From Hufsiella arboris (GTDB lineage Bacteria > Bacteroidota > Bacteroidia > Sphingobacteriales > Sphingobacteriaceae), in contig NZ_WVHT01000004.1 of assembly GCF_009834875.1 (NCBI RefSeq), positions 248,001 through 312,000 on the forward strand: 64,000 nt of DNA. The letters are read 5' to 3'. Positions within the stretch are counted from its first letter, which is position 1, and the number at the start of each line of letters is the position of its first letter. Positions 682 through 32,184 of this stretch are shown here, piece by piece. Position numbers and translations under genes: made by a program. The notes under the pieces were generated by a model that had not been told where the DNA came from, did no database searches, and saw only the letters and a list, made by a program, of their open reading frames with translations.

Positions 682-2916
682 ATGGAATTCCTACAACAAA
701 ATTTAATTTATGCTATACCCTTGCTGGGTATTGTTGGCATTCTGGTAATGCTTAGCAAGTCGGCCTGGGTTGTTAAACAGGAGGCCGGCGACGAAAACAT
801 GCGGACTCTTGCAGGATACATTGCAGATGGGGCGATGGCGTTTCTGAGGGCTGAGTGGAAAATACTTTCTTACTTCGTAATTATCGCGGCTGTGCTTTTA
901 GCTTATTCCGGAACTTTGGTGGAAACCTCCAGCTGGGTGATTGCCGTTTCTTTTATTATCGGCGCTTTTACTTCTGCTTTTGCGGGATTTATAGGAATGA
1001 ACATCGCAACAAAGGCAAACGTTCGGACCACACATGCCGCGCGTACCAGTTTAGCACAGGCTTTAAAAGTTTCGTTTACCGGCGGCTCGGTAATGGGTAT
1101 TGGCGTCGCGGGATTGGCAGTTCTAGGCTTAGGTTCATTATTTATCCTTTTTTATCATATCTACGTGCTTAAAACCGGTGGCAGCGTTAATGGTAAAGAG
1201 ATGGAAAAAGCGCTGGAAGTTCTTGCAGGATTTTCACTCGGAGCCGAATCTATAGCCTTGTTCGCACGTGTTGGCGGTGGTATTTATACTAAAGCGGCTG
1301 ATGTTGGCGCCGATCTTGTTGGCAAAGTCGAAGCCGGTATTCCCGAAGATGATGTTCGTAATCCCGCGACTATTGCAGATAACGTAGGCGATAACGTAGG
1401 CGACGTTGCTGGAATGGGTGCAGACTTATTCGGTTCTTATGTAGCAACAATCCTCGCGACGATGGTATTGGGTCGTGAAATTAAGTCTGAAGATAACTTT
1501 GGAGGTATCGCCCCTATTTTGCTTCCGATGCTGATTGCAGGTTTGGGATTAATCTTTTCAATTATTGCAACCTATTTCGTGAAGATTAAGAACGAAAGCG
1601 ACAGCGTACAGAAAGCTCTAAACATCGGTAACTGGTCGTCGATCATTATGACAGCCATTGCTGCCTTCTTCGCTGTAAAATGGCTTTTGCCGGAAACAAT
1701 GGAAATCCGTGGCTTCGCCTTTACAAAAACCGATGTTTTCATGGCGATTATTGTAGGCTTGATTGTCGGAACATTGATGAGCCTAATCACAGAATATTAT
1801 ACGGCTATGGGTAAACGGCCTGTGCGAAGTATCATTCAGCAATCTTCAACAGGCCACGCGACAAATATCATAGCCGGGCTTGCAGTCGGAATGGAATCAA
1901 CGGTATTGCCGATATTGGTATTGGCATCCGGAATTTATGGATCATATTACTTCGCCGGACTGTATGGCGTTTCTATTGCCGCCGCTGGCATGATGGCAAC
2001 TACGGCCATGCAGCTGGCGATTGATGCCTTCGGCCCGATTGCCGACAATGCCGGCGGTATAGCAGAAATGAGCCAGTTACCAGAAGAAGTCCGTCATCGC
2101 ACCGACAATCTGGACGCAGTAGGAAATACCACGGCCGCTACCGGAAAAGGCTTCGCTATTGCTTCCGCTGCGTTAACTTCTCTGGCACTATTCGCAGCAT
2201 TCGTCGGTATTGCAGGAATTGATCACATAGATATTTATAAAGCGAACGTGCTTGCCGGCTTATTCGTGGGAGGTATGATTCCATTTATATTTTCTGCGTT
2301 GTGTATTTCGGCGGTGGGACGTGCAGCAATGGATATGGTTCAGGAAGTTCGCCGCCAGTTCCGTGAAATTCCTGGAATTATGGAGTATCAGGCCAAACCT
2401 GAATATGAAAAGTGCGTGGCAATCTCTACCAAGGCTTCTTTAAGAGAGATGATGTTGCCTGGCGCTATCGCGCTGATTGTACCGATTGTTGTTGGATTTA
2501 TATTTGGCCCAGAGGTACTTGGCGGTTTACTTGCAGGTGTTACTGTTTCAGGTGTGTTAATGGGTATGTTCCAGTCGAACGCCGGCGGTGCCTGGGACAA
2601 TGCAAAAAAATCGTTTGAGAAGGGCGTAAATATTAATGGCGAAATATTTTATAAGAAATCCGAACCGCATAAAGCATCAGTAACCGGCGATACCGTAGGC
2701 GATCCTTTTAAAGACACTTCCGGCCCGTCGATGAACATCCTTATCAAGCTCATGTCGATTGTTTCTTTAATCATCGCGCCGCATATCGCTCAGAATGCAG
2801 AAGCAAAAAATCCGGGAAAGGTTGAAATCAAAAAGGAGATCCGAATCCTGAAAAAAGATTCACTTTCCGATAAAGTTGACACGATTGTAAACAGGACAGA
2901 CACAATATTGCGCTAA
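682..2916 (+). CDS. hppA: Membrane-bound K+-dependent ion-translocating pyrophosphatase
   Basis: Integral membrane enzyme that hydrolyses cytoplasmic PPi and pumps H+ and/or Na+ outward. 744 aa with about 16 membrane segments. Family signatures are plain: DVGADLVGK (207-215) followed by EAGIPEDD and the NVGDNVGD repeat that bind Mg-PPi. [10 protein letters not shown] (481-490) carries Ala485 where K+-independent enzymes have Lys, so K+ dependence is predicted; Na+ versus H+ specificity cannot be settled by eye. A hydrophilic tail of about 35 residues follows the last membrane segment. Own promoter upstream and terminator downstream, so monocistronic. Confidence 0.96.
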
Positions 2917-2936
2917 AGTGCGTATTTAGTACAAGG

Positions 2937-2970
2937 AAAGGGATTTTGGCAGCAAAATCCCTTTTTCTTT
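2937..2970 (+). terminator. Rho-independent terminator of hppA
   Basis: 11-bp perfect stem AAAGGGATTTT (2937-2947) with AAAATCCCTTT (2954-2964), 6-nt loop, followed by a T-rich run. Confidence 0.85.
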
Positions 2971-3031
2971 TTTGGATTTATTTCTTTACGTTTGGAACCA
3001 TGTATAAAACTTACTAGACACAAGTTCACAA

Positions 3032-9435: not shown

Positions 9436-10317
9436 CTAGCCTTTCAACAGGTATTCTTTTACATATTTTGCGCTCTTTTGCACACACGCCATATCATTTG
9501 GAATGTAGTTGTTACCCTGTTCCACATACATATGCCTTACGCCGGCTGCATGTGCCAAAGGCAGGATAGCCTGAAAATCGATATCGCCATTACCCATAAA
9601 AGTATGCAGATCAGGATCTTTTCGGTCTCTGTCTTTAAGATGCCAAAGTTCAAAACGACCGGGATTTTTTCTAAACAATTCAGTTAAATCCTGTTTCATG
9701 TAAGATGCCCAGTACAAATCGAGCTCGAGCCTTACTATTGCTGGATCCGTTCGTTGCAGCAATAAGTCGTAAAGCATAAGCCCGTCATGGTCAACGAACT
9801 CAAAATTATGATTGTGATAAGCAAATTTTAAACCTGCAGCTGTAATCCGTTCACCGATTAAGTTTAACTGATCAATTAATTTTTTAAATGATTCTGCATC
9901 TCTCATGGATGGGTCCAACCATGGCCACACAATGTATGTTTGGCCAAGCTTTTCGGCCCCGGAGATACAAAGATCAGTATAACGTACCAGCTCTTCGTTA
10001 CCGGAACCGGGAGTAAAGAACTTATTCAGGTCGAAGTGACCGCTGGGAGATTTTAAGTTAAGATCATTTAGCAAGGTCTTGAAGTCCGAGGGATCATAAC
10101 CATAAAATTTTCCGTCATAGCCATAGATTTCGACTTCCCGGTAACCGTATTCTGAAATTTTTTTCAGCGTTCCTTTCACATCTTTAGACAAAGCGTCTCT
10201 GATGGTATAAAGTTGTAAACCCAAAGCATAAGGTTGCCGATTGTCTGCAAACGATGTACTACAGGCCGCGGCAGCAACCATCGTAACAGAATACTTTAAA
10301 AATTTTCGTCTTTTCAT
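9436..10317 (-). CDS. Exported sugar-phosphate isomerase/epimerase-like TIM-barrel protein
   Basis: 293 aa. MKRRKFLKYSVTMVAAAAC at the N-terminus is a Tat-like leader with a possible lipoprotein cysteine. The remainder is a xylose-isomerase-like TIM barrel (AP endonuclease 2 fold): LGLQLYTIRDAL opens the first strand, YHNHNFEF and LDLYWAS carry the usual His and Asp metal ligands, and HMYVEQGN closes the site. Such exported members in Bacteroidota act on oxidised sugars, but the substrate is unknown. Single gene, convergent with the small exported protein gene. Confidence 0.82.
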   Translation of the reverse strand: MKRRKFLKYSVTMVAAAACSTSFADNRQPYALGLQLYTIRDALSKDVKGTLKKISEYGYREVEIYGYDGKFYGYDPSDFKTLLNDLNLKSPSGHFDLNKFFTPGSGNEELVRYTDLCISGAEKLGQTYIVWPWLDPSMRDAESFKKLIDQLNLIGERITAAGLKFAYHNHNFEFVDHDGLMLYDLLLQRTDPAIVRLELDLYWASYMKQDLTELFRKNPGRFELWHLKDRDRKDPDLHTFMGNGDIDFQAILPLAHAAGVRHMYVEQGNNYIPNDMACVQKSAKYVKEYLLKG

Positions 10318-10571
10318 ATTTTAAGGTTGACCGAAAGTGGCTATCGGTGAAGGTTATGTGACTAAAATAATAATAAACAATTTGCTGAACAAAACGGCCA
10401 GCTGTTCATAACATTCGTGAAGGAAACGGTTCGGTTTAGCACTTATTGACAATAAATTTAGTAAGGGATTTTATCGCAATGAGAAATAATTAAATTGCAG
10501 ATGAAAGTGGCTTTTTATCCAAATGCGCCTTAAGTAGTTTAGATATGATACTGCAGTAAGAAAAAAGCAAA
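10318..10571. other. Intergenic region upstream of the VOC gene
   Basis: AT-rich DNA between two divergent genes. I see no perfect promoter; TAGTTTAG near 10537-10544 is one mismatch from a -7 box. The short leader frame beginning at 10572 is described with the VOC gene. Confidence 0.4.
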
Positions 10572-10709
10572 ATGAACAGACTAATAATTGCAATTTCGAT
10601 TGTAACAGTTCGCACAAATTGCAATCCGACAAAAAAAGCAAAAAAATGGAAGACCAAAAAAATGAAACAACAAACACACCTTCAACTAACGACACGTCCC
10701 CTAAGGTAA
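10572..10709 (+). pseudogene. Lipoprotein-like leader frame, out of phase with the VOC domain
   Basis: ATG at 10572 opens MNRLIIAISIVTVRTNCNP, which looks like a signal peptide ending at a lipid-anchored Cys17, then K-rich linker, and stops at 10707-10709. The linker in the neighbouring frame (SDKKSKKMEDQ) continues into the VOC domain. A shift of -1 at either of two phased A_AAA_AAA heptamers (10631-10637 and 10640-10646) joins the two. It is therefore either the broken 5' end of the VOC gene, a recoding site, or a homopolymer sequencing error. The lipobox residue before Cys (Asn) is not ideal. Confidence 0.5.
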
Positions 10710-11092
10710 CCGGCATTGGAGGCATTTTCTTTTTTTCTGACAATCCTAAAGAGGCGAGAGAATGGTACAGTAAAAACTTAGGACTTGAAACCAACGACTA
10801 TGGTTCGACTTTTGAATCCAGAAATGTAAACAAGCCTGAGGAAATTAATTCCCTCCAATGGAGCCCTTTCAAGCAAGGCAGCGAATATTTTGCGCCATCT
10901 AAAAAGGAATTTATGATTAACTATCGGGTTCAAAACATCGAAGGACTTGTGGAAAAATTAAAGGAAAATGGCGTGACTGTGCTTGACAGTGTCGCGACTT
11001 ACGACTATGGAAAATTTATACATATCATGGACCCGGAAGGCAACAAGATAGAACTTTGGGAACCAAGTGAAGATGACCAAAAGGGTGAGTAA
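10646..11092 (+). CDS. VOC (glyoxalase/bleomycin-resistance) family protein
   Basis: 148 aa from the ATG at 10646. One VOC module: GIGGIFFFSDNPKEAREWYS begins it and FIHIMDPEGNKIELWEP ends it with the metal-ligand Glu of the second beta-alpha-beta-beta-beta unit. It resembles YdcJ/GloA-like uncharacterised single-module proteins; the substrate is unknown. The first 25 residues are a polar Asn/Thr/Lys-rich linker, as expected behind a lipoprotein anchor, and a leader lies just upstream in another frame. The longer frame to TTG 10619 is not favoured. Confidence 0.85.
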   Translation: MEDQKNETTNTPSTNDTSPKVTGIGGIFFFSDNPKEAREWYSKNLGLETNDYGSTFESRNVNKPEEINSLQWSPFKQGSEYFAPSKKEFMINYRVQNIEGLVEKLKENGVTVLDSVATYDYGKFIHIMDPEGNKIELWEPSEDDQKGE

Positions 11093-11255: not shown

Positions 11256-12728
11256 TTACTTATTGCCAGCCGCTGGCTTTCCCTCCCTGTTCCGGAAAGT
11301 TTTCATTCCATTTCTAACCATTCCGGCGGTCGCAGTATTTCTGATCTTACTTCTCATGTTCGCCCGCATGTAAAGCATCACCCGCGAAGGGTCGGTTGAT
11401 CCTGTTTCACGAACTGCTTTTAACCAGCGCAGCGAAAGCATGGCCAGCAAACCGCCAAAAATGAAGAAGTAGTTCCAACCCTGTAAGTGAATGACATTTA
11501 CTACGGTTGAGGTTTGCTCGTCGGTAAAAGAAATAGAACCAGCCATCTGATGCGTGGCAAAAAAGTCGGCCATCAGACCGCCTAATAGCGGAGCAAGTGC
11601 TGAGAAAACAGCCACAGCCATATTCTTTGCAGACAAATAAGCCATCGCCTCGTTTTTAGGTGCCAGCTTAATACCGATGTTATTTAAAGCCAGGTTTATT
11701 CCAGAAGTAGAAATCCCGCTCACAATATTGATCAAAACCAATAAGGCGAGACTTAATATATAATGTGACGGCATCGACGTAAAACTCATCGCGAGGATAC
11801 AGGCGATGTAAGCCGGTGCACACAAACTGATAATACTTTTATTGCTGTGCTTATCGGTATATCTGCCCCATAATTTGATCGAAAAAATCCCGCTGATTTG
11901 GCCGATGATGCCTAAAGCGATCACATACGAAATCGGCAGACCGATTGTTTTGAGCATGAACACTGAGAAAAACGGCGTGGCTAAGTTTAATGCAAATGCC
12001 CAAAAAGAATTGAAAATCAGCAATCTTCTAAAATTCTTATCCTTCAATGGCTTTTTGAAAAGCGTCAACGTATTTTCATTGGTTACAGACATCGTTGGTT
12101 CGGGCGTACGCGCAAGCATCCAGGCGCTTAACATTCCGAACAAACCACCTATAATAAACATAATAAGGTAGGCATATCCGACATAACCGGGATGGCTGGA
12201 CTTTATGTAATCAAGCGCTGTGGCTATTCCCAGGCTCAAAGTAACGCTCGCGATTTGCGCCAATCTGCTGCGGTGTGAGAAAAACGATCCAAGCTTTTCG
12301 TCTGGAATAAGGTCTTTCATCCACGAGTTCCAGCTTGCGCCGGAAATCGATCCGCCGAAATAATGAATAGATAATAGAAAAATCAGCACCTGGATGCTGG
12401 TTCCCGCTGTAAACATAAAAGGCAACGCGCCAATTAAAAATAACGGGAAGCGTGCAACGACCGTGCTTATAAACGATATTGCTCTCCGATTTTTATATCG
12501 CTGCACAAGCCAAATGGATAAAAGCTGGAAAATATTACTAAACGTAGGCAAGGACGCTAAAATACCCAGCTGGAAATTTGACGCTCCCAACTGAACCGCA
12601 AGCGCCACCAGGAATGTACCGCCGGTAAATGCAACCATCGCTTCGGAAGCGACTCCATCAGTGACAACGTACTTTAATCCCCTGTTAATTTGTGTGTCTG
12701 ATAATTTTTCTGAAGTTCTAAATCCCAT
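11256..12728 (-). CDS. MFS transporter
   Basis: 490 aa from the ATG at 12728 (MGFRTSEKLSD); a longer frame to a TTG at 12818 is possible but not favoured. About 12 membrane segments in two halves, with the basic loop WLVQRYKNRRA between helices 2 and 3 and LWGRYTDKHSNK in the second half, both MFS loop motifs. A large periplasmic insertion with KSSHPGYVG is absent of known domain. Substrate unknown. No cotranscribed partner; a strong bidirectional terminator follows. Confidence 0.82.
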   Translation of the reverse strand: MGFRTSEKLSDTQINRGLKYVVTDGVASEAMVAFTGGTFLVALAVQLGASNFQLGILASLPTFSNIFQLLSIWLVQRYKNRRAISFISTVVARFPLFLIGALPFMFTAGTSIQVLIFLLSIHYFGGSISGASWNSWMKDLIPDEKLGSFFSHRSRLAQIASVTLSLGIATALDYIKSSHPGYVGYAYLIMFIIGGLFGMLSAWMLARTPEPTMSVTNENTLTLFKKPLKDKNFRRLLIFNSFWAFALNLATPFFSVFMLKTIGLPISYVIALGIIGQISGIFSIKLWGRYTDKHSNKSIISLCAPAYIACILAMSFTSMPSHYILSLALLVLINIVSGISTSGINLALNNIGIKLAPKNEAMAYLSAKNMAVAVFSALAPLLGGLMADFFATHQMAGSISFTDEQTSTVVNVIHLQGWNYFFIFGGLLAMLSLRWLKAVRETGSTDPSRVMLYMRANMRSKIRNTATAGMVRNGMKTFRNREGKPAAGNK

Positions 12729-12910
12729 TTCTCTCTGAATCAGGGTGTGGTGCCTGATTTCCCGCTCGGTACTAACAAAACAGCTTCCACTATTTAAATT
12801 CGCGACTGATTTACTCAATATGGGATTTCTGATTCACTAAGGCAGGAAGCGGATGGGAGCTGCTGACAATATTATGATACATTGTCTATCACCGACGAGG
12901 CTATTTCCGG

Positions 12911-24135: not shown

Positions 24136-26040
24136 TTAAACATATGCCCGCTGGTTCTTTCCTTCCATCCAGTTCATGAAGGCTTTGTTAACAACCCTAT
24201 TACCACCCGGAGTTGGATAATCGCCTGAAAAATACCAGTCGCCAAGATTTTGAGGACAGGCAAGATGCAGGTTTTCTAAAGTTTGATAAATCACCTGAAC
24301 TTCCGCTTTAATATCCTTCGGTGTAATAATCTGTGTAATCCTATCGGAAATCTCAACTGGCGTGAATGGCTTGTAAATCGCCTTCACATAATTGGTGAGG
24401 TTTTCTTTAGGGATATTCTCGCCTTTTTTGCAGTTATCGTAAGCATCAAAAATCACGTTCTCCATCCCTCTTTCTTTCAAAAGTGAGATAGCTGCTTCAA
24501 ATGCTACGAATTCGCCCATGCGCGACATATCAATACCGTAACAATCGGGATAACGGATCTGCGGCGCCGATGAAACGATAATAATCTTTTTAGGCCCAAG
24601 GCGATCGAGAATTTTAAGAATACTTTGCTTCAGTGTTGTACCACGTACAATGGAGTCATCAAGGACTACCAATGTATCAAGTCCGCGACGGATAAGGCCA
24701 TAAGTAGTATCATAAACATGCGACACCATATCCTGGCGATCGGCGTCCTGCGTGATAAACGTACGGAGCTTTACATCCTTGATAGCAATTTTTTCAACTC
24801 TTGGGGCGAGATTCAGCATTTCCTCCATCTCCTGGTCAGAAATCTTATCCGCCCGGTTCAGTAAGGTATCGCGCTGCAGCTTTTTAACATATTTGTGCAG
24901 CCCTTCTACCATTCCGTAAAATGCAACCTCAGCTGTATTAGGAATATATGAAAATACTGTATTCTTTAAATCGTAATTAACGGCTTCAAGGATTTGCGGG
25001 CATAACAAACGGCCCAGCTGTTTACGTTCCTTGTAAATCGCCGCGTCACTTCCTCTTGAGAAATAAATCCGCTCAAATGAACATGACTTTTGCTCAACCG
25101 GCTCATGGAATCGTTCTTCAGAAATTTTACCATCCTTTTTTGCGATCAACGCGTGACCTGGTTTGATTTCACTTACCAGTTCGAAAGGAATGTTAAACGC
25201 TGTCTGGATAGCTGGTCTTTCTGAAGTTACAACCAATATTTCGTCGTCATAATAATAATACGCCGGACGAATACCAGCCGGATCACGCATAACGAAAGCG
25301 TCGCCATGTCCAAATATTCCGCTGATGGTGTACCCACCGTCCCATGTTTTAGCTGAACGACGAAGAATTTTCTTAACATCCAGATTTTCAGCTATTTTAT
25401 GACTGATCTCAACATTTGAAAGCCCTTCCGATTTGAATTTATCGAACAACTCCTGGTTCTCTGTATCGAGGAAATGTCCGATCTTTTCAAGTACTGTTAC
25501 CGTATCTGCCTTTTCTTTTGGGTGTTGGCCAAGTTCGTATAACTGCTCAAGCAATTCATCTACGTTGGTCATATTAAAATTCCCGGCGATAACCAGGTTA
25601 CGGCTCATCCAGTTATTCTGGCGTAAAAAAGGATGACAGCTTTCAATGCTATTTTTTCCATGTGTTCCGTAACGCAGATGGCCCATGAGCACTTCCCCGG
25701 TAAAACTTACGTTTTCCTTTAACCATTCAGTATCAGTCAAGAGATGCGGGTCGGTAGCCTGAACTGTCGCGAACTTTTTCTGAACATGTTCAAATATTTC
25801 AGCAACTGCACCCGATCCCATCGCCCGGTAACGGCTGATGTAACGGTTCCCTGGTTTCGTATCCAGTTTGATAGTTGCAATACCGGCGCCATCCTGACCG
25901 CGGTTATGCTGTTTTTCCATCAAAAGGTACAGCTTGTTCAGACCGTAAAGGGCCGTCCCGTATTTTTGCTGATAAAACGATAGGGGTTTCAGAAGACGAA
26001 TGAGGGCAATACCGCACTCATGTTTAATCGAATCACTCAT
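24136..26040 (-). CDS. purF: Amidophosphoribosyltransferase, enlarged Bacteroidota form
   Basis: 634 aa against about 470-505 for usual PurF. First step of purine synthesis: PRPP plus glutamine to phosphoribosylamine. The Ntn-hydrolase nucleophile is Cys9 after a short propeptide (MSDSIKHE). HLRYGTHGKN and GNFNMTN form the amidotransferase site, and VVLDDSIVRGTT is an intact PRPP loop. A block of about 60 residues around KKLQRDTLLNRADK is inserted before the PRT loop, and the C-terminal extension contains GDWYFSGDYPTPGGN. Some genomes carry this form beside a canonical PurF, so the exact role is not certain. Confidence 0.85.
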   Translation of the reverse strand: MSDSIKHECGIALIRLLKPLSFYQQKYGTALYGLNKLYLLMEKQHNRGQDGAGIATIKLDTKPGNRYISRYRAMGSGAVAEIFEHVQKKFATVQATDPHLLTDTEWLKENVSFTGEVLMGHLRYGTHGKNSIESCHPFLRQNNWMSRNLVIAGNFNMTNVDELLEQLYELGQHPKEKADTVTVLEKIGHFLDTENQELFDKFKSEGLSNVEISHKIAENLDVKKILRRSAKTWDGGYTISGIFGHGDAFVMRDPAGIRPAYYYYDDEILVVTSERPAIQTAFNIPFELVSEIKPGHALIAKKDGKISEERFHEPVEQKSCSFERIYFSRGSDAAIYKERKQLGRLLCPQILEAVNYDLKNTVFSYIPNTAEVAFYGMVEGLHKYVKKLQRDTLLNRADKISDQEMEEMLNLAPRVEKIAIKDVKLRTFITQDADRQDMVSHVYDTTYGLIRRGLDTLVVLDDSIVRGTTLKQSILKILDRLGPKKIIIVSSAPQIRYPDCYGIDMSRMGEFVAFEAAISLLKERGMENVIFDAYDNCKKGENIPKENLTNYVKAIYKPFTPVEISDRITQIITPKDIKAEVQVIYQTLENLHLACPQNLGDWYFSGDYPTPGGNRVVNKAFMNWMEGKNQRAYV

Positions 26041-26057
26041 AGCTGGTGTTGAGCACG

Positions 26058-26086
26058 CAAATTTATGAATTTTTATCTGCTAACAA
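26058..26086 (-). promoter_or_regulatory. Promoter of the purF-like gene
   Basis: On the minus strand: TTG (26086-26084), 18 nt, then TAAATTTG (26065-26058), an exact TAnnTTTG. The leader would be about 13 nt. Confidence 0.65.
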
Positions 26087-26214
26087 TAGTTTAAATGTTT
26101 CAACATGATTTTTTAACAATAGAATGATAACCAGCCAATTGCCTGTAAAATGGCAGAGATTTATAGATCCTATTGCAAGACTGACGACTATATTGGAAAA
26201 CTGGTTAGCTTAAT

Positions 26215-27705
26215 TCAATTAATCAAGTCGGTTATAACTTGGGGAAAGATTCCAAAAATCAAAACAAGAAATGTTAAGACTAAACTAATAACCAACTTTA
26301 CGTCGAATTTTTCGCGGGGCAAAATACTCTCGGTCTTGCGAAGGTATGCATACAATGGCACTTTGAAATAATAAAAAAGAGAGACAACAGTCGTAACCGC
26401 ACCGGTTATCATCATCCAGAGAATAAGTGATGAACCTGATGATTTATACGATTCCAGCGCAGATCCAAAGACAAGAAATTTAGCAACGAACCCGGATGTT
26501 GGCGGCAAACCGGTTAATGAAATTAAAACAATAAGCAACGAAATGAACGTCAACGGCATTGATTTGCCCAAACCCAGATAAGTCGAAATATTGACAGAAC
26601 CTGACTCCTGTTCAACCTTGTCAACCAACATAAAAGCCGCGACGTTGGTCAGCAGATAAATAAAAAGGTAAAAGATGAGGCTTTTAAATCCGGCAGTATT
26701 CGCTACAAGAGCCATCATTAAAAATCCTGTATGACCAATTGATGAATAAGCCAGCATGCGTTTGATATTATCCTGCCAGATTGCCGCAAGATTTCCAAAA
26801 AGCATCGTTACAATAGCTACGATTCCTATTAATCCCTGGAAATCGTAGACTGAAATCGCATTTCCGGATGAGTTGAAAGCTTCTAAGACCCTCCATAACA
26901 GTGCAAATCCTGCGATCTTTGACCCTGTGGTTAAAAATGCGGTGACAGGAGTCGGTGCTCCTTCGTAAACGTCGGGACTCCAAAAGTGCAACGGAACGAA
27001 AGACATTTTAAAACCAAGCCCAACAAGGAACAAGGTAATTGCAAGTCCGGCACTCCACACAGGAATGGCGTTCAGCCCTTCAAGCAAATCGGCATTTAAA
27101 TTAAGTGTTCCGGTAAAACTATAAATCAGCGAAATACCGTAAAGCATAATGGCCGAACATGCAGCACCGAATAAAGCATATTTAATTGACGCTTCTGCTT
27201 GTTTACCATCGCCGGAAATATATCCAACCATGATGTATGAACCAATCGAAACCGTTTCTATGGACAGATAAACCATAAGCAGGTTAGCCGACATCGCCAT
27301 GCAATTCATCCCGAGCAAAACCGCTATCAGAACAGCATATAAGTCGCCTGTCCCTTTTTTATGTTGCTGCATTTGCTGGTTGTTCCTGACAAATACAATA
27401 AAAAGGATAGCTGAAAGCAAGAACAAAAGCTTAAAATAAACTGACGCCGGTTGCAGAACGATCATGCCGCTGTAAAGCGTGAGTGAATCGCCAATAGCAA
27501 ACTGCTTAATAGTAAGGGTGAAAACTACAGCTAACGAAATAAGTGTTATCCAGAAAGGCAGCTGTTTAATCCGCTTAACAAAAAACAACTCCGAAAATAT
27601 TACCAGTAGAAAAGAAACTACCAGCCCTATTTCCGGGTAAATTCCTCTGATGCCGGCAATCGTTCCGTTTAATGAATCGGAGATGTATAAGCTATAATCG
27701 TCCAT
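26215..27705 (-). CDS. nuoN: NADH-quinone oxidoreductase subunit N
   Basis: 496 aa, antiporter-like membrane subunit of Complex I, about 14 helices. MVGYISGDGKQAEASIKYAL holds the conserved Lys of helix 7, FKMSFVPLHFWSPDVYEGAP the helix 8 lysine region, and KRMLAYSSIGHTGF the helix 12-like site. Last gene of the nuoH-N run; its ATG overlaps the nuoM stop. Confidence 0.96.
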   Translation of the reverse strand: MDDYSLYISDSLNGTIAGIRGIYPEIGLVVSFLLVIFSELFFVKRIKQLPFWITLISLAVVFTLTIKQFAIGDSLTLYSGMIVLQPASVYFKLLFLLSAILFIVFVRNNQQMQQHKKGTGDLYAVLIAVLLGMNCMAMSANLLMVYLSIETVSIGSYIMVGYISGDGKQAEASIKYALFGAACSAIMLYGISLIYSFTGTLNLNADLLEGLNAIPVWSAGLAITLFLVGLGFKMSFVPLHFWSPDVYEGAPTPVTAFLTTGSKIAGFALLWRVLEAFNSSGNAISVYDFQGLIGIVAIVTMLFGNLAAIWQDNIKRMLAYSSIGHTGFLMMALVANTAGFKSLIFYLFIYLLTNVAAFMLVDKVEQESGSVNISTYLGLGKSMPLTFISLLIVLISLTGLPPTSGFVAKFLVFGSALESYKSSGSSLILWMMITGAVTTVVSLFYYFKVPLYAYLRKTESILPREKFDVKLVISLVLTFLVLIFGIFPQVITDLIN

Positions 27706-29303
27706 TACTTGCCGGTTACATGATGAATTAGCTCCAGAACCGATCCGTTTATCTTATCGAAAGCCAACGACGGAAAAACGCCGAGGATAAGCGCGAGTAA
27801 GGCAAGCGGTGCCAATGCAAGTTTTTCACGCATCGTTAAGTCGTTCAACTTAGTCCTCCATTCTTCTCCACCCATCAGACGTGTTTGCCCAAAAAACATC
27901 CGCTGCAAGGTCCATAAGAAATAAGCTGCGCTTAACAGGATACCAACTGAACCAGCGATGGCCATCCATCGTGGAATTGCTCCGTTCACAGTCTCGGAAT
28001 TGAAAGCGCCAATTAAGCTGAATGCTTCCGCGATAAATGCCGAAAAACCAGGCAAGCCAAGCGAAGCAAAAAAAGCGATCATAACGAAGGCAGTATACTG
28101 CGGCATAATGTTAGCCAGGCCCCGGAAATTGGCTATTTCACGGTCATGCACCCGGTTATAAACTATGCCAACCAGGAAGAACAACATGGCTGATAAAAAA
28201 CCGTGACTGATCATCTGCATCACCGAACCGGCGGCCCCCTCAGCGGTGAGAGACGCGGTGCCCAGTAATACGAAGCCCATATGTGATACCGACGAATATG
28301 CGATCAAACGTTTTAAATCTTTTTGAGCGAGTGCATTTAAAGCACCGTAAACGATAGAAACGACGCCAATGAGCCCAAGCCACCACGATGTATGTATCGC
28401 TGCATCCGGAAATATTCCATAACATATTCGCAAAATTCCATATCCTCCAACTTTTAAGAGTATTCCGGCAAGTATAATTGACACCGGTGTTGGTGCTTCC
28501 ACGTGGGCGTCGGGCAACCAGGTGTGCAATGGAACAATCGGAACCTTAATCGCGAATGCGATGAATAAAATGATAAATCCGAGCAATCTCGCCGGGATGC
28601 CCAGGAGTGTTTGCTGCGCAAGACTTCCAAAAATAGAATCACCCGAATAATTGGCCGGATTCATCATGTGAACCATATTAAAAGTATGATTGCCTGTTTC
28701 AGGATCGGTAACCGAAAAATATAAACCAACCATTATCAGCAGCATAAATACCGACCCAGCCAATGTGTAGAGGAAAAACTTGATGGCCGCATATTCACGC
28801 CGCACACCGCCCCACATCCCGATAAGGAAATACAATGGAAGCAGCATCAGTTCATAAAAAATATAGAACAGGAAGAAATCAAGGGCACAAAAAACACCGA
28901 TAATTGCTGTATCAAGCAGCAGGAATAATGCAAAATAACCCTTCAGATTCGTTTTAATCTCCCAGGAAGATATCGTTGCCACCATCATGATAATGGACGT
29001 TAGCAGCAAGAAAGGAACGGACAATCCATCGATTCCGAGGAAATAGTCAATCTGTAATTTTCCCATTGAACCGAGGTCGAGCCTGATCCACGAAATCTGC
29101 TCTTTGAATTGATAGGAATTGATCAGGTCAACACCCCTAAGGGAGTTATCAAAATGAAAATAGATGTATCCGCTTATCGCGATTTGAACAAGCGTTACTG
29201 CAAGCGTAATATATTTAAACTGCTTTTGCCAGCCCGATGGAGCCACTAAAATAATAATGCCGGCAATAAGCGGAAGAAAAGTTAATATACTTAGCAAATT
29301 CAT
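27705..29303 (-). CDS. nuoM: NADH-quinone oxidoreductase subunit M
   Basis: 532 aa antiporter-like subunit. FFLFYIFYELMLLPLYFLIG carries the conserved helix 5 Glu; KVPIVPLHTWLPDAHVEAPT and KRLIAYSSVSHMGFVLLG carry the proton-channel lysines. The start ATG overlaps the nuoL stop (ATGA), so translation is coupled. Confidence 0.97.
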   Translation of the reverse strand: MNLLSILTFLPLIAGIIILVAPSGWQKQFKYITLAVTLVQIAISGYIYFHFDNSLRGVDLINSYQFKEQISWIRLDLGSMGKLQIDYFLGIDGLSVPFLLLTSIIMMVATISSWEIKTNLKGYFALFLLLDTAIIGVFCALDFFLFYIFYELMLLPLYFLIGMWGGVRREYAAIKFFLYTLAGSVFMLLIMVGLYFSVTDPETGNHTFNMVHMMNPANYSGDSIFGSLAQQTLLGIPARLLGFIILFIAFAIKVPIVPLHTWLPDAHVEAPTPVSIILAGILLKVGGYGILRICYGIFPDAAIHTSWWLGLIGVVSIVYGALNALAQKDLKRLIAYSSVSHMGFVLLGTASLTAEGAAGSVMQMISHGFLSAMLFFLVGIVYNRVHDREIANFRGLANIMPQYTAFVMIAFFASLGLPGFSAFIAEAFSLIGAFNSETVNGAIPRWMAIAGSVGILLSAAYFLWTLQRMFFGQTRLMGGEEWRTKLNDLTMREKLALAPLALLALILGVFPSLAFDKINGSVLELIHHVTGK

Positions 29304-31345
29304 ATAGCCGGACTAAAATACCGTAAAACAAAAAAAGTTAGCACCACAAAAATCATTACAGCCAGATAATATTGGATCCGGCCTGATTGAAATGACCTGA
29401 AAAAATTACCAAGGCCAGCCGCCGCTCTTCCTGCCAGATTGACGAAACCATCAATTAATTTTCTGTCCAACCAGCCCGCTATTGAAGATAAAAGAACCCC
29501 GGATTTGCCAACAATATCTACCAACCCGTCAATAACTTTTCTGTCGATTGAGAAGCTGAATTTCGAAACATAAGTGACAGGGCGAACAATAGCCTGGTGA
29601 TAAAATTCATCGAAATACCATCCGTTCAGTGCGAAATTATATAGCCATGTATTTTCACGAAACATAGCTTTTTCTTTTCTGGCATACTGGATGTAAGCGA
29701 AATAAATGATCAGCACCGCGAATAAATTTAACAATGCTGGAATCACGGTATGATAAGAATGAATTCGTTCTAGAGCGACAGACCCCGGAAATACTTTCAA
29801 AAGCCAGGTATTTTCATAAGATAAGGGGTTAACAGAAAATAAAAAAAACGCTGAACACACTGCGAGAAACAGCTGCGGCATCAGCATAAACCTGGGAGCT
29901 TCGTGTATTAGCCTTTCAGTTTTGTCGCCCTGAATACGAAGCTCACCGTAAAACACTTTAAAAATCAGCCGCGCTATATAAAAAGTAGTAAGCCAGCTGG
30001 TGAGCATTGCAAGGTATGGAATCAGTTTAGCGGCAAAAGAGCGTGTTGTGGCCCATTCAAATGAAGAAATCAGGATAGCATCTTTTGAAAGATAACCCGA
30101 TGTTAAAGGAATACCACACAAGGCCAGCGCCGCAATAACCATCGTAACAAACGTTAACGGCATCATTTTCCTCAATCCGCCCATATTGCGGATATCCTGA
30201 TGATCGCAATCAGCATCCAGCTTATTTTTTGCATAATGCATTTCATGGATAACCGAGCCTGCGCATAAAAACAAAAGGCATTTAAAGAAAGCATGTGTGG
30301 CAAGATGAAAAATGGCTGCTCCGTTATTCCCTATTCCGATTGCCAGCATCATAAAGCCAAGCTGTGAGATGGTAGAATAAGCGAGAATGCGCTTAATATC
30401 GTTCTGCACCAACGCAATAGTAGAGGCCATAAATGCCGTAAAAATCCCGATCACCGCGATCGTAATTAAAACCGTTGAATCAAATATTGGCGAAACACGA
30501 ACCAACAGGAACACGCCCGCAGCAACCATGGTGGCCGCATGAATTAAAGATGATACTGCAGTCGGGCCCTCCATTGCATCAGGAAGCCAGGTGTGTAAAG
30601 GAAACTGGGCAGACTTAGCCAGCGCTCCAAATACAAATCCGAATCCGCAAACCAGTAACCAAACGTATGAAATATGCCCTAATGGGGCTATCCATTCTCC
30701 ACTTGTAAATTGGGATAAATGGAATAGACCACCGTCGCCGAAAAGCTTTTCTATATCGAGCGTTCCAAATTGAGAGTACAGGATCATTAGCGCAAGCAAA
30801 AAACCCAAGTCACCTAAACGGTTCATAATAAATGCTTTTTTGTTAGCTTGGACAGCGGCGTCACGCGTACGCCAAAAACCTATTAGCAGGTATGAAGAAA
30901 AACCAACAAGCTCCCAAAAAATATAGATCAGCAATAAATTATCAGCGATTACCAAGCCCAGCATGGACGAACAGAATAAACTTAAATAGCCCCAATATCG
31001 GTCAATATTTTCGTCACCCTTCATGTAAGCCAGGGAGTAGATATGAACCAGAAACGCAATTCCGCTAACTAGCAATATCATCAAAGCTGATAAGTTATTT
31101 AGAAGAAGGCCAACGTCCCAGGACGTTTGTCCAAGCGTGAACCAATGATGCTGAATATGGATATTCCCGGCGTTCCATATCTTGAAAAACACAAAGCACG
31201 ACGCTATAAAACTGACAGCGATAGAACTAACGGCTACTTTTCCGCTTATGCTCTTTGGAACGAAAAACATGCATAATACAAAAGACAGCAGCGGCATTAA
31301 AACCGCCAGTAAACTCACCACAGGTATGATATCGTGTTGTTCCAA
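29300..31345 (-). CDS. nuoL: NADH-quinone oxidoreductase subunit L
   Basis: 681 aa, the largest antiporter-like subunit, with the long C-terminal lateral helix typical of NuoL. QFPLHTWLPDAMEGPTAVSS and KRILAYSTISQLGFMMLA are diagnostic. Starts with TTG directly after the nuoK TAA (TAATTG); no ATG is available before conserved sequence. Somewhat longer than the E. coli protein (613 aa), the extra length lying in the C-terminal part. Confidence 0.97.
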   Translation of the reverse strand: MEQHDIIPVVSLLAVLMPLLSFVLCMFFVPKSISGKVAVSSIAVSFIASCFVFFKIWNAGNIHIQHHWFTLGQTSWDVGLLLNNLSALMILLVSGIAFLVHIYSLAYMKGDENIDRYWGYLSLFCSSMLGLVIADNLLLIYIFWELVGFSSYLLIGFWRTRDAAVQANKKAFIMNRLGDLGFLLALMILYSQFGTLDIEKLFGDGGLFHLSQFTSGEWIAPLGHISYVWLLVCGFGFVFGALAKSAQFPLHTWLPDAMEGPTAVSSLIHAATMVAAGVFLLVRVSPIFDSTVLITIAVIGIFTAFMASTIALVQNDIKRILAYSTISQLGFMMLAIGIGNNGAAIFHLATHAFFKCLLFLCAGSVIHEMHYAKNKLDADCDHQDIRNMGGLRKMMPLTFVTMVIAALALCGIPLTSGYLSKDAILISSFEWATTRSFAAKLIPYLAMLTSWLTTFYIARLIFKVFYGELRIQGDKTERLIHEAPRFMLMPQLFLAVCSAFFLFSVNPLSYENTWLLKVFPGSVALERIHSYHTVIPALLNLFAVLIIYFAYIQYARKEKAMFRENTWLYNFALNGWYFDEFYHQAIVRPVTYVSKFSFSIDRKVIDGLVDIVGKSGVLLSSIAGWLDRKLIDGFVNLAGRAAAGLGNFFRSFQSGRIQYYLAVMIFVVLTFFVLRYFSPAI

Positions 31346-31651
31346 TTAGTCTCTTAGCTTATTTAGTTTATCAGGATCAATAGATTTATAGTACTTATAA
31401 ACGTTTAAAATAATCGCAAGGGCGACGGCGACGCTTGCGGCAGCAATGACGATAGTGAATAGCGCAGTCATTTGGCCTCCCATATAGTTCTTGTCTGATT
31501 TACCCGCTGCAACAAAATTTATCAACGCAGCATTGATCATAAATTCTATTCCGATCAGCAACTGAATTACGTTTCTTTTAACCAGCACCGCATACAATCC
31601 GATCACGAAAAGCGCAGCGCTCAGCATCATAAAGTTTGATAATGGAATCAT
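31346..31651 (-). CDS. nuoK: NADH-quinone oxidoreductase subunit K
   Basis: 101 aa, three helices, the normal size. LLIGIEFMINAALINFVA contains the conserved membrane Glu needed for proton pumping, and AASVAVALAIILNVYK the second conserved region. Its ATG overlaps the nuoJ stop by 4 nt (ATGA). Confidence 0.97.
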   Translation of the reverse strand: MIPLSNFMMLSAALFVIGLYAVLVKRNVIQLLIGIEFMINAALINFVAAGKSDKNYMGGQMTALFTIVIAAASVAVALAIILNVYKYYKSIDPDKLNKLRD

Positions 31652-32184
31652 TCCGCTTTATCCTTTCTGGCCAGGTGAGCAGCTCCTATAAGCGCCATCA
31701 TTAAAAACACGGAAGCCACTTCGAATGGAAACAAATAATTTGTCATCAAGTTGATTCCGATAATTTGAACAGTATTGTCACTAACAGATAAGTGGTTACC
31801 GCCATTTATCCAGTCAAGCTGATTAACATTGCTTTTTACCAAAGCAAATACCAGTATAAAAAATAAAGCTAATGACAGTACAATAGCGGGAATATTTTGA
31901 ACAGCTGAGTATCTTGTTTTAACCAGCTCCAATGTGTTCAACAGTTCTTTACTCGAAAGCATAAAAGCGAATAACATGAGAACGAGCACTCCTCCCACAT
32001 AAACTATAATCTGGGTTACCGCGACAAAATCACCAAGCGATAAAACGAATAAACCGGCCACGGCGAATAAGGTCACAAAAAACAAAAATATCGACCGGAC
32101 CAGACTTTTCACGACTACCGCAAGCAGCGCCGATATTATTACCAGGGCAGCAAACACATAAAATATGATTTGTTCCGGCGTCAT
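31648..32184 (-). CDS. nuoJ: NADH-quinone oxidoreductase subunit J
   Basis: 178 aa, five helices. AVTQIIVYVGGVLVLMLF is the conserved helix 3 that carries the pi-bulge in Complex I, and PFEVASVFLMMALIGAA closes it. ATG overlaps the nuoI stop by 4 nt. Confidence 0.97.
   Translation of the reverse strand: MTPEQIIFYVFAALVIISALLAVVVKSLVRSIFLFFVTLFAVAGLFVLSLGDFVAVTQIIVYVGGVLVLMLFAFMLSSKELLNTLELVKTRYSAVQNIPAIVLSLALFFILVFALVKSNVNQLDWINGGNHLSVSDNTVQIIGINLMTNYLFPFEVASVFLMMALIGAAHLARKDKAE

Follow-up and report, generated by a model that had tools for sequence, protein, structure and literature searches.

The VOC gene at positions 10572-11092 of the window, by which the whole stretch of 64,000 nucleotides of Hufsiella arboris DNA that was analysed is meant, probably gives one main product, a cytosolic VOC protein translated from the ATG at 10646. 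This start lies behind a decaying, out-of-frame lipoprotein leader with a damaged lipobox, and the reading as a whole is given a probability of roughly 0.77. The original prediction had proposed that slippage at two A-rich heptamers joins the leader to the VOC domain. In the explanation preferred here, the upstream open reading frame (ORF) of 45 codons would be what is left of a lipoprotein leader, which many relatives carry in frame. The window leader is one base off that frame, and its lipobox is damaged. The two A7 runs would belong to an A-rich linker that doubles as the initiation region of the ATG at 10646. Translation would start at this ATG and lead to the cytosolic VOC-fold protein, with slippage unneeded.

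The features of the locus are as follows.

10572..10709, + strand: putative relic lipoprotein leader ORF, 45 codons; 22.3 bits with the leader HMM; its frame differs from that of the VOC body by one base
10611..10613, + strand: Arg codon at lipobox position -3
10620..10622, + strand: codon of the candidate lipid-modified Cys
10631..10637, + strand: A7 run 1, read as A_AAA_AAA by the leader frame; spans -15 to -9 relative to ATG 10646
10632..10645, + strand: A-rich initiation region in front of ATG 10646; A stands at -3, -6, -12 and -13 (positions from the cited part of PMC6847099)
10640..10646, + strand: A7 run 2, read as A_AAA_AAA by the leader frame; spans -6 to -1 relative to ATG 10646 and includes its A
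10646..11092, + strand: VOC (glyoxalase-like) ORF, 148 amino acids; PF00903 match; nearly all close relatives share the start Met
10656..10662, + strand: third A7 run, with no slip phase for the leader frame

The leader ORF starts with the ATG at 10572, and its encoded N-terminus, MNRLIIAISIVTVRTNC, is lipoprotein-like. The ATG at 10646 stands in the -1 frame relative to this ORF and opens the 148-residue frame that runs to 11092, as the original prediction described. The VOC gene lies on the + strand between two genes of the - strand, one for a xylose-isomerase-like TIM-barrel protein (9436-10317) and, on the other side, one for an MFS transporter (11256-12818). The search of positions 10320-10572 for sigma-70-like patterns, for the Bacteroidota -7 pattern TANNTTTG and for a looser TTG-spacer pattern gave no candidate, and the sole promoter-like trace in this interval is a partial TAAATTT at 10453. 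Elsewhere in the window, positions 26001-32000 have a strong positive AT skew of 0.17 to 0.22 over three back-to-back minus-strand ORFs (26215-31345).

The VOC body matches the PF00903 Glyoxalase profile with 31.8 bits (cut-off 20.6) and the PF18029 Glyoxalase_6 profile with 24.5 bits, which is barely over the cut-off of 23.6. The NCBIfam models gave no match to the body at cut-off, and the sequence search matched one solved sequence, the putative glyoxalase-family protein 2QQZ (E 0.002). The likeness to the VOC superfamily consists in these two Pfam matches and in 2QQZ, and the PF00903 match places the body in this superfamily. The predicted product is an ordinary small glyoxalase-like VOC protein and a putative enzyme.

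The homologues were gathered by similarity to the VOC body alone. A contig search supplied 80 loci, the best of 351, and the best-matching loci of genome searches were added, 30 of them from a longer list. Such a collection comprised 170 loci (L001-L148 and L171-L192), of which 168 matched and 155 did so at an identity of at least 65%; removal of L191, which has no anchor motif, and of 13 duplicates left 141 distinct genes, the window included. The leader HMM was scanned over the three frames of the upstream DNA, and the maximum on the reverse strand, 3.8 bits, served as the control. Among the matches listed, an intact in-frame lipoprotein leader with an ATG start is present in 46 of the 141 genes, and L183 (26.9 bits) probably has an intact leader with a GTG start. 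Eight genes, again counting the window, have a recognisably broken leader scoring 9.2 to 35.7 bits. The leader is absent or leaves a doubtful trace in 86/141 of the matches listed: 79 score at most 3.5 bits, and L041, L092, L073, L014, L144, L142 and L107 score 4.0 to 6.2 bits, barely over the reverse-strand maximum. An example of the in-frame arrangement is L039, with MNRLIIAISIVTVLTDCNSTNKKSNK-MEDLKNE, and in 35 of the 46 intact leaders 16 residues precede the Cys. Both states are normal for this gene, the fused, predicted lipoprotein as well as the leaderless form. The comparison with homologues suggested along with the original prediction gave both results: fused lipoproteins in the number stated, with the ATG at 10646 as the conserved body start, and homologues that lack a leader, which had been named as evidence against a joined product and which make up most of the sample. 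The plasmid search returned three matches, all below 60% identity. The congener genome that was compared had no match to the VOC gene at E 1e-20, and its DNA matched the region only inside the neighbouring MFS gene.

The lesions of the broken leaders are of several kinds. The frame break occurs in the window and in L062 only (2/141 among the matches listed). L062 (positions 2880-3030) has a well-formed leader, MKRLLTIIVLVALLASC, whose frame is off from that of the VOC body by one base, and its A8 run holds a phased A_AAA_AAA. The leader of L088 is separated from the body by a stop, that of L171 (identical to L034) has Tyr in place of the lipid-bearing Cys, those of L033, L058 and L110 have a 5' part that is missing or interrupted by stops, and that of L061 has no in-frame ATG and carries Pro-Lys-Asn before the Cys. 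Upstream of the VOC start, L014, L142, L015 and L019 also have stretches with a faint likeness to the leader (1.0 to 6.2 bits), each with a stop in a different frame after it. They are perhaps older leader relics; L014 and L142 alone among the four exceed the reverse-strand control. These four loci share a genus code (g13) with loci identical to Pedobacter records (L007 = L102, L012 = L111).

The window leader is a true relative of the intact ones. Its score of 22.3 bits stands against the reverse-strand maximum of 3.8 bits, it resembles the in-frame leaders of L035 and L039, and the features that the original prediction had noted, the frame opening at 10572, its length of 45 codons and the candidate lipid-modified Cys, are all present. 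This Cys is residue 17 and follows a hydrophobic stretch, the mean hydropathy of the 14 preceding residues being 1.24. The intact relatives resemble the Sec/SPII lipoproteins of Bacteroidota: their leaders begin with basic residues, continue with a hydrophobic stretch and in most cases have Leu, Ile or Phe at lipobox position -3. The window leader departs from this type by lying out of frame and by its Arg at -3. Across the 46 intact leaders this position holds L in 26, I in 8, F in 5, M, V and T in 2 each and C in 1, and in none of them Arg. Arg at -3 of a lipobox would be expected to block processing. As an SPII lipoprotein the window gene falls short twice, with a signal peptide one base off the frame of the mature protein and with a -3 residue (10611-10613) that is not an acceptable one. 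In the window 26 bases separate the Cys from the body ATG, and in 33 of the 46 intact relatives 27 or 30 do so. The window leader has two independent faults, the frame break and the Arg at -3, and two separate faults fit a leader that is no longer under selection. We infer that the damage reflects relaxed selection, that a functional anchored form is absent and that the ATG at 10646 is the start in use. A point against the preferred explanation is that the leader ORF itself is probably still translated, because its ATG at 10572 also stands in an A-rich context, in which -3, -6 and -13 are A and -12 is G. The [KAS](D/E)2 pattern was not found shortly past the Cys in any of the 46 intact relatives; patterns of this type are the kind of surface export signal described in the cited part of PMC5080379.

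In Flavobacterium johnsoniae, whose mRNAs have no Shine-Dalgarno sequences, A at -3, -6, -12 and -13 relative to the start codon is associated with high translation, according to the cited part of PMC6847099. The ATG at 10646 has A at all four positions, and a Met stands at the start of the VOC body in close relatives with or without a leader. The context of this inner Met was compared with that of other Met codons of the same bodies in 31 leader-bearing relatives whose inner Met precedes the VOC anchor by 16, 18 or 20 residues. A is more frequent at -3 (24/31 against 30/71, p 0.0012), at -6 (26/31 against 14/71, p 1.1e-9) and at -12 (28/31 against 31/71, p 7.6e-6), and shows no difference at -13 (18/31 against 35/71). 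Such a context comes in part from the composition of the linker, which is rich in Lys, Asn and Thr. Synonymous codon choice does not separate the inner start from the start of the leader: Lys is encoded by AAA in 53/57 cases between Cys and Met, against 262/348 in the body (p 0.0018), 57/74 after the Met (p 0.016) and 27/32 in the leader (p 0.27). The fourfold degenerate third positions carry A in 50/90 cases, which is higher than in the body (409/1282), with no excess over the leader or the stretch after the Met. A-rich codons are in any case usual close to the start of a gene.

The heptamers on which the original prediction was built are as it described them. The first A of each phased run is the third base of a leader codon, giving A_AAA_AAA twice in the X_XXY_YYZ phase, and a -1 slip at either run restores a continuous leader-VOC protein; the third A7 run, at 10656-10662, had been missed. 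In-frame A_AAA_AAA occurs 77 times per 129,565 codons in 464 kb of the same genome (20 stretches and the window), and within the first 30 codons in 10 of 353 ORFs of these 464 kb, and two such heptamers in one leader are uncommon genome-wide. The A fraction of codons Cys+4 to Cys+9 is 0.64 in 38 leader-bearing genes and 0.62 in 46. The other lipoproteins compared have lower values, 33% in 17 from this genome and 40% in 18 from the collected loci and the window. The A-runs of the window are accounted for by this composition, because the linker from Cys to inner Met is A-rich across the related leader-bearing genes.

Programmed -1 frameshifting or transcriptional slippage at the A7 runs would add a minor lipid-anchored VOC protein beside the cytosolic form. 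The two phased heptamers speak for it, and so does the second frame-broken allele: L062 needs the same -1 shift, has a leader that is otherwise well formed and keeps a phased heptamer in its A8 run. Single-base deletions placed in 30 intact linkers leave a phased heptamer in only 109 of 810 cases, and in 9 of 162 when limited to AAA, and the shared sense and heptamer of the two alleles are weak support for slippage. The heptamers of IS elements are A_AAA_AAA or A_AAA_AAG in 72% of cases, as stated in the cited part of PMC4066793. The window resembles the programmed cassettes with A_AAA_AAG/A described there in its phased slippery heptamers. It differs from them in that no stimulator was found and the arrangement is not conserved. 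Folding without pseudoknots gave no sign of a stimulatory structure 3' of the heptamers (z +0.29, with 112 of 200 shuffles equally good), and shift-prone heptamers without a stimulator reach 2.1- to 10-fold the E. coli background, which is about 0.055%, again in the cited part of PMC4066793. Of 38 in-frame genes, 23 have a phased A_AAA_AAN somewhere from the start of the leader to the VOC domain, mostly past the inner Met, but only 2 have the exact A_AAA_AAA. The 46 intact relatives are plainly in frame, a recognisable leader is out of frame by one base in only 2/141 genes among the matches listed, and a slipped product would still carry Arg at -3. Programmed frameshifting is rejected as the main reading because no stimulator was found, the arrangement is not conserved and the lipobox is damaged; even as the source of a minor form, slippage joining leader and VOC domain is very unlikely.

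The same 26 bases between Cys and Met, in a family where 27 or 30 are usual, could come from a sequencing or assembly error, the true sequence being one A longer and the gene a plain in-frame lipoprotein. Homopolymer runs are error-prone, but A7 is short for an error of this kind. The genome is 99.97% complete with 0.02% contamination, broken or missing leaders are common in the sample, and the Arg at -3 remains at any run length, which makes such an error unlikely. Phase variation, in which changes in A-run length toggle the anchored form within a population, would draw on the A7 and A8 runs that lie at the frame junction in the window and L062. However, A7 is also short for frequent replication slippage, the "on" state would be poor with the lipobox at fault, and the other six broken leaders have lesions of other kinds; this explanation is hardly credible. 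The 45-codon ORF could also be an overlapping upstream ORF that tunes VOC translation, since it overlaps the ATG at 10646 and has an A-rich start context. This proposal is compatible with translation of a cytosolic protein from the ATG at 10646, but a recognisable leader lies out of frame over the body start in only two of the 141 genes among the matches listed, and a tuning role is highly improbable.

The history of the leader was followed on trees which leave out L038, a short sequence, and in which L183, the seven genes with doubtful traces and the 79 low-scoring ones are all labelled as having none (87). On a quick DNA tree of 140 bodies with many weak branches, the difference between intact and not intact requires 23 parsimony changes. 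An earlier tree of 129 requires 19, against a mean of 32.4 when the states are shuffled, and its starred branches force at least 7. Because leader state clusters on the tree, not every leaderless row is a separate loss. Loss of the predicted leader does happen, as the broken leaders show; the tree itself cannot separate loss from gain. The position of L120, L122, L123 and L146 amid other lineages on the quick tree suggests horizontal transfer. The genomes of nine leader-bearing loci (L116, L117, L120, L122, L123, L145, L146, L147 and L148) are listed in the same phylum as the window and not in the same class.

The leader-bearing relatives carry the body start as an inner Met at a nearly constant place. 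It lies 9 or 10 codons past the Cys in 33 of the 46 genes, elsewhere in the linker in 6, and is absent in 7. In the enlarged set it is present at a fixed column in 26 of 31 ungapped rows and, on the tree, in 25 of 30 rows with 5 steps; the smaller set of the first 38 intact leaders had given 24/27 with 3 steps. Such a Met is the most conserved column of the linker, with 5 changes over 30 rows against 6 to 19 for the other columns from -29 to -6. The second-best column is the Lys at -24, the codon of which spans bases -12 to -10 of the inner ATG. Five rows miss the Met at the fixed column; one of them, L180, has it at Cys+10, displaced by a length change downstream. L059 and L105 have AGG and TTA, respectively, at this codon, and four added, more diverged leader genes (L186, L188, L189 and L192) have no inner Met. 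Because of these diverged genes, the conservation of this presumed start is claimed for the core of the family. The control lipoproteins are few, 17 from 464 kb of this genome and 18 from the collected loci and the window. A Met past the Cys is rare in them, at 4/493 positions in this genome and 5/522 in the collected loci and the window, and some Met within 29 residues of the Cys is present in 4/17 and 4/18 of them, respectively.

This pattern may mean that one mRNA of a leader-bearing member yields two forms. Translation from the first ATG would give a lipoprotein, and translation from the conserved inner ATG, in its A-rich context without a Shine-Dalgarno sequence, would give a cytosolic enzyme. 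The proposal is tentative and somewhat short of an even chance. The plain alternative is that a cytosolic ancestor once started at the inner Met, and that this residue has not yet drifted. The window is not itself a nested dual-start gene, its starts at 10572 and 10646 being in different frames. An extension of the two-form proposal, in which the frame-broken members (the window and L062) make a trace of anchored form by -1 slippage, has a very slim chance. The N-terminal proteoform pairs of Salmonella (the lipoprotein yfhG, ompX and pagC), as given in the cited part of PMC11005335, are similar in that the shorter form from the inner start would lose the signal peptide and stay cytosolic; the Salmonella pairs lose either a signal peptide or the localisation of a lipoprotein. 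There, both starts were mapped by ribosome profiling and the localisation was mostly predicted, whereas here the starts are deduced from conservation among relatives. A limited literature search found no description of nested starts for VOC proteins.

The findings carry a caution for the reading of Bacteroidota genomes: phased A-runs near gene starts can mimic frameshift sites and yet be the A-rich initiation region of the next ATG. The production of two forms, if true, would explain why the leader can be lost repeatedly without loss of the gene. With leaders broken in various ways beside a preserved inner start, the family offers a natural experiment on whether nested starts serve dual targeting, and it does so in a phylum without Shine-Dalgarno signals.
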